Assembly: GCF_037996825.1 (NCBI RefSeq)
Contig: NZ_JBBNAC010000001.1
Coordinates: 1 to 64,000 of the forward strand
Origin: Bdellovibrio sp. BCCA
GTDB lineage: Bacteria; Bdellovibrionota; Bdellovibrionia; Bdellovibrionales; Bdellovibrionaceae
Length of the DNA stretch: 64,000 nt
Direction: 5' to 3'
Of this stretch, positions 48,053-53,328 are shown piece after piece. The position numbers and the translations under genes are program-made. The first letter of the stretch is position 1. The number at the start of each line of letters is the position of its first letter. The notes beneath the pieces were generated by a model. It was not told where the DNA came from, made no database searches, and saw only the letters and a program-made list of their open reading frames with translations.

Positions 48053-49513
48053 TTGCCCACTTCTTTTTCACAACCGATTCCTGATTTTAAAAAGGCGCCG
48101 TACACGGCGATCATTAGTGATTTGCATTTAACAGAGGCAGAACCAGTACGCGTTCGCTTTCCGTTGTGGAAAAAATTTAAAACCCGTCAGTTCTTTTTTG
48201 ATGATGTTTTTGAAAGCTTTCTTAAACATATCGAAGAAAAAGCTCAAGGCGCTCCGATTGAACTGGTTTTAAACGGCGACATCTTTGATTTTGATAGCGT
48301 GTTGCGTTTGCCTGATGAGCCGGTTTTTCATGTCGGTTGGCTTGAAAAACATCGTGGACTTTATCCTCGCGAAGAACGCTCCCGCTTTAAAATTGAGGTC
48401 ATACTCAAAGACCACGCAGAGTTTGTGCGCGCGTTGAGAGAATTTATTCTGCGCGGCCATCGTGCGATTTTTGTTATGGGAAATCACGACCTGGAGCTTC
48501 ACTTTCCCGAAGTGCAGGAAGAGATCTATCGTCATCTGAATTTGCCAGAACACAAACGTCAGGAAGTTCGTTTTGTTGAATGGTTTTATATCAGCAATCA
48601 GGACACTTTGATTGAGCACGGGAATCAATACGATCCGTATTGCATGTGTGAAGACCCGGTGAATCCTTTTGTGCGCGGATACAATTTCGTTTCTTTAAAA
48701 CTTCCGTTTGGAAATCTCGCCTGTCGTTACATTATGAACGGCATGGGATTTTTTAATCCGCATGTAGACACAAACTACATCATGACTTTGCCGGAATACA
48801 TCCGCTTTTTCTTTAAGTATGTTGCGAAAGCACAACCAGGGTTGGTGTTAACTTGGTTCTGGGGTGCTGTAGTGACTCTTCTTCACTCGTTCTTCGACCG
48901 TTTGGCGGCGCCGATTCGCAACCCACTGAAAATTGAAGATCGTGTTTCTTATATTGCCGAAAAAGCCAACGCGGAACCGCGTATGGTGCGCGAGTTGAAA
49001 GAACTTTTTGTGGATCCCGCGGCAAGCAACCCGTTTTTGCTGGCTCGTGAGTTGTGGTTAGATCGCGCCTTTATTATCTTCATCGCCTTCTTTTTAATCT
49101 TTCAATTGATGGTTTTTGTTCGCTCCGTTTATGAGATTTCATTTTTCTGGGCGTTCATTCCGTTGTTTTTGCTTCTTCCATTTTTCCTTTTCTACAGTAA
49201 ATCAGTAACCTCTTTGGTTTCTGGATACAAAGAACCGGATGACCGCGTGCTGGCCATGGCGAGTGCGATCACGAAAGCGCAGCGCATTGTCTTTGGGCAC
49301 ACCCACCATACGCGCCATGAGATTATTGGTTCTGTAGAACACCTCAACAGTGGGTGCTGGTCACCCGCGTTTTTGGATGTGGAGTGTACGAAACCCTTGG
49401 ATCAGAAAACTTTCGTGTGGATTTCTCCGGGGGAAAGCGGCTCAAGGCAGGCAGAACTTTTCCGGTTCGAGGATGGGAAGTCAGAACTTTTGATCAACCC
49501 GGGACGCGCATAG
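48053..49513 (+). CDS. Membrane metallophosphoesterase
   Basis: The 486-residue product has the calcineurin-type phosphoesterase motifs SDLHL, NGDIFDFD, GNHDLE, HGNQYDPY and GHTHHTRHE, in order, and two adjacent membrane helices (FIIFIAFFLIFQLMVFV and FFWAFIPLFLLLPFFLFY) inserted before the last motif. The fold resembles UDP-2,3-diacylglucosamine hydrolase (LpxH) but is much longer; the substrate is probably a lipid- or membrane-linked phosphoester. Start is TTG behind GGGAGG. Diverges from murD. Confidence 0.88.
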   Translation: MPTSFSQPIPDFKKAPYTAIISDLHLTEAEPVRVRFPLWKKFKTRQFFFDDVFESFLKHIEEKAQGAPIELVLNGDIFDFDSVLRLPDEPVFHVGWLEKHRGLYPREERSRFKIEVILKDHAEFVRALREFILRGHRAIFVMGNHDLELHFPEVQEEIYRHLNLPEHKRQEVRFVEWFYISNQDTLIEHGNQYDPYCMCEDPVNPFVRGYNFVSLKLPFGNLACRYIMNGMGFFNPHVDTNYIMTLPEYIRFFFKYVAKAQPGLVLTWFWGAVVTLLHSFFDRLAAPIRNPLKIEDRVSYIAEKANAEPRMVRELKELFVDPAASNPFLLARELWLDRAFIIFIAFFLIFQLMVFVRSVYEISFFWAFIPLFLLLPFFLFYSKSVTSLVSGYKEPDDRVLAMASAITKAQRIVFGHTHHTRHEIIGSVEHLNSGCWSPAFLDVECTKPLDQKTFVWISPGESGSRQAELFRFEDGKSELLINPGRA

Positions 49514-49605
49514 AATTAGTGCGCCGCAAGAAGATTTCATATTGTCAATTTCTAGACCCTATGCAAACCTTTTAGAGGTAAACACACGGATGGAGAGGTT
49601 TAATC

Positions 49606-49800
49606 ATGGCAGACGTACTTGTAGTGACAAGCAAAGTGAAAAAACTCATCAAGGAAAAAGGTCAAATGAACACTTCTGCTGAGACAATTGATGTTCTTAG
49701 CAAAGCTATCGAGCAACTTTGCTTGAAAGGTGTCGAGAGTGCTAAAGCTGACGGTCGTAAGACTGTTATGGCTCGCGACATTGTGATCGACCACATTTAA
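49606..49800 (+). CDS. Bacterial histone (Bd0055-type, single histone fold)
   Basis: A 64-residue histone-fold protein: helix 1 at about 8-18, loop, long helix 2 (TSAETIDVLSKAIEQLCLK) at 23-47, and helix 3 at 53-63. The histone pair motif R-x-T-x4-D is present as R51, T53 and D58 (GRKTVMARDI). There are no tails. It matches the B. bacteriovorus histone Bd0055 (HBb), which is known to be an abundant nucleoid protein that forms dimers and coats DNA in an unusual, edge-on way rather than wrapping it. It has a strong ribosome site (GGAGAGG) and a perfect terminator, so it is monocistronic and probably highly expressed. Confidence 0.95.
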   Translation: MADVLVVTSKVKKLIKEKGQMNTSAETIDVLSKAIEQLCLKGVESAKADGRKTVMARDIVIDHI

Positions 49801-49830
49801 TTCTTGGCGGATCACCTTAAATAAAAATCT

Positions 49831-49866
49831 AAACCCACAGTTTGCAAAGACTGTGGGTTTTTTTAT
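49831..49866 (+). terminator. Terminator of the histone gene
   Basis: AAACCCACAG (49831-49840) and CTGTGGGTTT (49851-49860) form a perfect 10-bp stem with loop TTTGCAAAGA, followed by TTTTT. The loop itself is partly complementary (TTTGCAAA). Confidence 0.95.

Positions 49867-49957: not shown

Positions 49958-53328
<3,371 letters not shown>

Follow-up and report, generated by a model that had tools for sequence, protein, structure and literature searches.

The window (the whole 64,000-nucleotide stretch of DNA that was analyzed) carries a gene that, judged by its sequence, is an ortholog of Bd0055/HBb and belongs to the bacterial dimer histone group of alpha3 histones. The protein is already known through this ortholog, which has been characterized structurally and functionally in the same genus, and it shows no informative differences. 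It very probably serves the nucleoid as an abundant protein that binds without regard to sequence and is probably essential, acting as a dimer that bends DNA like Bd0055/HBb. Taken alone, the window gene matters little, being another near-identical copy of a published histone. Among its orthologs, the contacts of the bending model are frozen across the order and the N-terminal arm and tetramer sites are drifting, a pattern that bears on the sheath-versus-bend argument, and descendants that have lost the RD clamp could reveal what a minimal histone can do without.

The original prediction placed a histone gene in this reading frame, and its coordinates proved exact: the frame opens with ATG, runs for 64 codons and ends with TAA (Table 1), and the encoded protein is MADVLVVTSKVKKLIKEKGQMNTSAETIDVLSKAIEQLCLKGVESAKADGRKTVMARDIVIDHI. 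The proposed motif residues R51, T53 and D58 were all confirmed at their positions in the translation, and the window protein contains the complete RD clamp or RKT...D motif (R51, K52, T53 and D58) together with the helix-1 lysines K10, K12 and K16. A sequence search of the PDB matched the protein over its full length to the Bd0055/HBb entries 8FVX, 8FW7, 8CMP, 9EZZ and 9F0E (E ~7e-35, 97% identity), and its Pfam PF00808 score was 23.7 bits, over the cut-off of 21.4. The claimed histone fold, lack of tails and match to Bd0055 are borne out. The NCBIfam archaeal histone model NF043032 gave 32 bits, under its cut-off of 50. No ZZ zinc finger was found at the N-terminus, and no additional domain was detected by Pfam. 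The protein shares 62 of 64 residues with Bd0055; the two differences are D3, which is E in Bd0055, and I64, which is L there, and both sites are reported to lie within the disordered termini of the 1.06 Å HBb structure 8CMP (PMC11317129). The alignment thus lacks the hoped-for substitutions: dimer interface and DNA contacts are the same as in Bd0055. The AlphaFold model, based on 26 homologs, was predicted to contain a helix at residues 7-18, a long helix at residues 24-48 and a short final turn, with moderate confidence (mean pLDDT 78, pTM 0.53), and a structure search with it returned the Bd0055 entries 8FVX, 9EZZ and 8CMP as top PDB matches. This model adds little, because near-identical crystal structures exist and carry most of the weight.

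One copy of the 64-residue histone was found in each of the 24 genomes of the genus. Relative to the window gene, the genus orthologs show dN of 0.007-0.055 and dS from 0.26 to saturation; low dN against dS, combined with presence in 24/24 genomes, indicates a real, constrained gene under strong purifying selection. The protein is short (64 residues), which could raise the question of a chance ORF or a misread homology, but the probability of either is negligible in view of the E-value to solved structures and the very low dN/dS across all congeners. Within the phylum, a search with the aligned genus orthologs gave matches in 318 of 369 genomes. In the order Bdellovibrionales, a profile of the diverged form described below matched 134 of 140 genomes, and 101 of the 102 good-quality ones, with matches taken to E 0.01 and the counts including a few genomes (e.g., G172 and G206) in which the match is only the longer zinc-finger (ZZ) histone. 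The view that bacterial histones are rare therefore holds overall, with the histone fold reported to be encoded by 1.86% of bacterial genomes (PMC10627809), but not within Bdellovibrionales. Among the good-quality genomes of the order, only G176 (2.8 Mb, 90% complete; locus L092) has no profile match; it yielded just a ZZ-type histone, and the missing match may reflect a gap in the assembly or genuine loss.

The window opens with dnaA, dnaN, recF, gyrB and gyrA, and the histone gene lies ~49.6 kb from the contig start, so that its predicted location near the origin holds. In six complete congeneric genomes, the histone gene was found ~46-54 kb from the chromosome start; in one complete congener (G001), the copy at 49.4 kb has the Bd0055 sequence itself. 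A calcineurin-like metallophosphoesterase gene lies upstream on the same strand in 24/24 congeners, and ligA lies downstream on the opposite strand, directly or past one intervening gene, in most congener stretches that are long enough. The order metallophosphoesterase-histone-ligA recurs across much of Bdellovibrionales. Between the histone gene and ligA, positions 49958-51322 encode a secreted-looking protein of 454 residues that has no Pfam match and is present only in some congeners. No second histone was found in this genome with either the PF00808 profile or a ZZ-type search. The sole other PF00808 match in the genome (C1:2227739-2227885, 12.1 bits) is under the cut-off and was considered spurious, since it lies within a signal-peptide-like ORF. 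Five HU/IHF-family genes are present in the genome; a 209-kb second contig, possibly a plasmid, carries the fifth of them (G000:C2:60133-60399, locus L037), which is of the HU family.

Table 1. Positions of the histone gene, its surrounding features in the window, and the loci of clamp-less orthologs in other genomes.
Feature	Position	Strand	Remark
Histone CDS	49606..49800	+	64 aa; ortholog of Bd0055/HBb
Shine-Dalgarno region GGATGGAGAGG	49588..49598	+	strong conservation in genus
Conserved block GACCCTATGCAAACCTTTTA	49555..49574	+	candidate promoter or leader element; TATGC core in 24/24 species
TTGTCA	49542..49547	+	-35-like; invariant in 24/24 species; 12-13 nt 5' of TATGC
Short palindrome-like block TGCGCCGCA	49520..49528	+	kept in most of genus
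Intrinsic terminator	49831..49860	+	stem kept in genus; paired changes in its two arms
Calcineurin-like metallophosphoesterase gene (upstream neighbor)	48053..49513	+	conserved synteny
ligA, NAD-dependent DNA ligase (downstream)	51319..53319	-	conserved synteny
Clamp-less ortholog, L095	1429-1650	-	
Clamp-less ortholog, L096	1495-1701		
Clamp-less ortholog, L097	1495-1695		
Clamp-less ortholog, L098	1495-1704		
Clamp-less ortholog, L099	1447-1656	-	
Clamp-less ortholog, L100	1495-1701		
Clamp-less ortholog, L101	1495-1704		
Clamp-less ortholog, L151			

The signals around the gene only partly agree with its description as monocistronic with strong signals. The terminator and ribosome-binding site are conserved, but the upstream block does not fit a sigma-70 promoter: a consensus scan found none on the + strand, and there is no -10 element at the usual spacing from TTGTCA. 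The TTGTCA/TATGC block may be recognized as a promoter by an unusual holoenzyme, or it may serve as an operator or leader element, and TTGTCA-N12-TATG-related blocks were also observed in several other family members. No terminator was found between the end of the metallophosphoesterase gene and the histone gene; a monocistronic transcript is thus plausible but unproven. A search of the genome for GACCCTATGCAAACCTTTTA with zero mismatches returned this one copy. A shared promoter or regulon was rejected, as one-mismatch matches to CCTATGCAAACC numbered 7 against 8 for the reversed control, and the spaced pattern gave 9 matches against 6 in the reversed control, near the control level. A structured RNA leader was also rejected (fold z-score -0.16, no Rfam family), as was an antisense ORF at 49600-49815 (-), which is not conserved because in-frame stops occur in 14 of 24 orthologs.

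How would this histone act on DNA? Identity, conservation, synteny and the lack of a second histone in the genome are results of this analysis; fold, dimer state, DNA bending, abundance and likely essentiality come from published work on Bd0055, and we infer that the window-species protein behaves in the same way. The DNA-contact residues are identical to those of Bd0055. Two 64-residue chains would form one histone-fold dimer, gripping the DNA backbone across minor grooves with the L1-L2 loops (K12, N22, T23, S24, K52, T53 and R57) and also with the helix 1 residues T8, S9, K10 and K16. The DNA would be locally bent by roughly 80-90 degrees per ~36 bp, and the dimers would not stack to tetramers or nucleosomes. 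HBb was reported to be only a dimer in solution by SEC-MALS, and co-crystals with two DNA interfaces were described, with single dimers compacting and bending DNA (Hu et al., PMC11317129). Bending was assayed by tethered particle motion, circularization and topology; binding was genome-wide and non-specific, and a deletion was not obtained (PMC11317129). Bd0055 was reported to rank 12th in abundance among 2,125 proteins and to be the top protein of the nucleoid fraction (Hocher et al., PMC10627809), and the abundance expected in the original prediction fits these published values. A CBF/NF-Y-like role for this histone-fold protein, in sequence-specific transcription control rather than global packing, would fit Pfam's placement of the fold with CBF/NF-Y factors. 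We regard this as very improbable, given that DAP-seq of Bd0055 was reported without sequence specificity (PMC11317129), that the reported DNA contacts are to the backbone only, and that Bd0055 heads the nucleoid fraction (PMC10627809).

Two published models compete, and the shape that DNA takes at high protein density is debated. Hocher et al. described dimers arranged edge-on around straight 35-bp DNA in a co-crystal, with FRET showing no wrapping (PMC10627809). The edge-on DNA coating assumed in the original prediction corresponds to this model, but the later study favors single-dimer bending (PMC11317129). In the cell, the protein could mainly form a dense edge-on sheath on straight DNA, with the basic ridge stacked on the acidic underside and the N-terminal arms swapped. 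This arrangement, in agreement with the Bd0055-DNA co-crystal, with an ultracentrifugation result of more than 60 dimers on 147 bp and with the lack of FRET between DNA ends (PMC10627809), is considered unlikely against the second set of co-crystals and the particle-motion, circularization and topology results, all of which point to bending by single dimers (PMC11317129).

Conservation was assessed as per-position entropy, in bits, over 70 distinct ortholog sequences from the class Bdellovibrionia. At the ten contacts of the bending model, entropy averages 0.064 bits, compared with 0.645 at random positions; only ~1 in 5000 random sets gives an equally low value. S9, K10, K12, N22, K52, T53 and R57 are invariant, as are R51 and D58. 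Rough stand-ins for sheath-specific contacts were the N-terminal arm, residues 2 to 5 (mean 0.884), and the acidic residues outside the clamp (0.811). Neither set is better conserved than positions drawn at random (0.64), which also argues against the sheath. The pattern favors the bending dimer; it is also compatible with a dense sheath at high density, as most contacts are common to both models, and the conservation of T8, S9 and K10 could be partly structural, e.g., helix capping, rather than due to DNA contact. S45, A48 and I61, the three positions whose change turns Bd0055 into a wrapping tetramer, are variable, with an entropy of 1.242. The interface of archaeal nucleosomal tetramers is reported to require a histidine at the A48 position (PMC10627809); this histidine is absent from the window protein, and position 48 is A, S or N among the orthologs.

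What distinguishes the window protein from other known histones? Bd0055/HBb agrees with it in every DNA contact, in the RD clamp and in the dimer core, and its gene likewise has a metallophosphoesterase gene upstream and ligA nearby. The ZZ histone (Bd3044 type), in contrast, is an additional, longer histone whose N-terminus carries a zinc finger that the window protein lacks; the histone domain of the ZZ type is ~40-47% identical to the window protein, and 7 of the 24 congeners have a match of this type, whereas this genome has none. HLp of Leptospira perolatii (9QT0, face-to-face) and archaeal HTkC (9F2C) were second-tier sequence and fold matches and share the short alpha3-type fold and RD clamp. 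Both tetramerize, and HLp is reported to wrap ~60 bp (PMC12701072), whereas HBb remains a dimer. The archaeal nucleosomal histones HMfA, HMfB and HTkA have the histone fold, KT loop and RD clamp in common with the window protein, but differ in their longer helices 2 and 3, tetramerization histidine and DNA wrapping.

In eight Bdellovibrionales genomes of 1.4-2.0 Mb (G231-G234 and G252-G255), which represent three genera of one related family, the canonical copy is absent and a diverged histone was found. The diverged gene is very likely the ortholog, because ligA adjoins it in 5 of 7 loci. In the diverged orthologs, the segment DGRKTVMARD is replaced by (D/N)KLK(T/V)(V/A)(K/R)x(N/H/A/S)H; R51 has become L and D58 has become H, so that both partners of the RD clamp were lost together. 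S9 and N22 have also changed, mostly to K, and K10, K12, K16 and K52 are retained. The diverged histone matches 8FVX at E 1.2e-7, and all three sequences tested scored under the Pfam cut-off, so that domain-based surveys may miss such histones. Within one genus, the diverged orthologs show dN of 0-0.007 against dS of 0.8-1.1, so that the protein is under constraint rather than a relic. With K10, K12, K16 and the KT loop kept under purifying selection, the balance leans slightly toward the clamp-less form being a working DNA-binding histone, with the loop presumably stabilized in another way. A partial check of the literature on the RD clamp in bacterial histones found no report of clamp-less forms; if true, these would be a natural test of the need for the clamp. 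Two genomes of 1.2-1.3 Mb (G224 and G225) retain the clamp, and thus genome size alone does not explain its loss. HU-family genes were also found in the clamp-less genomes.
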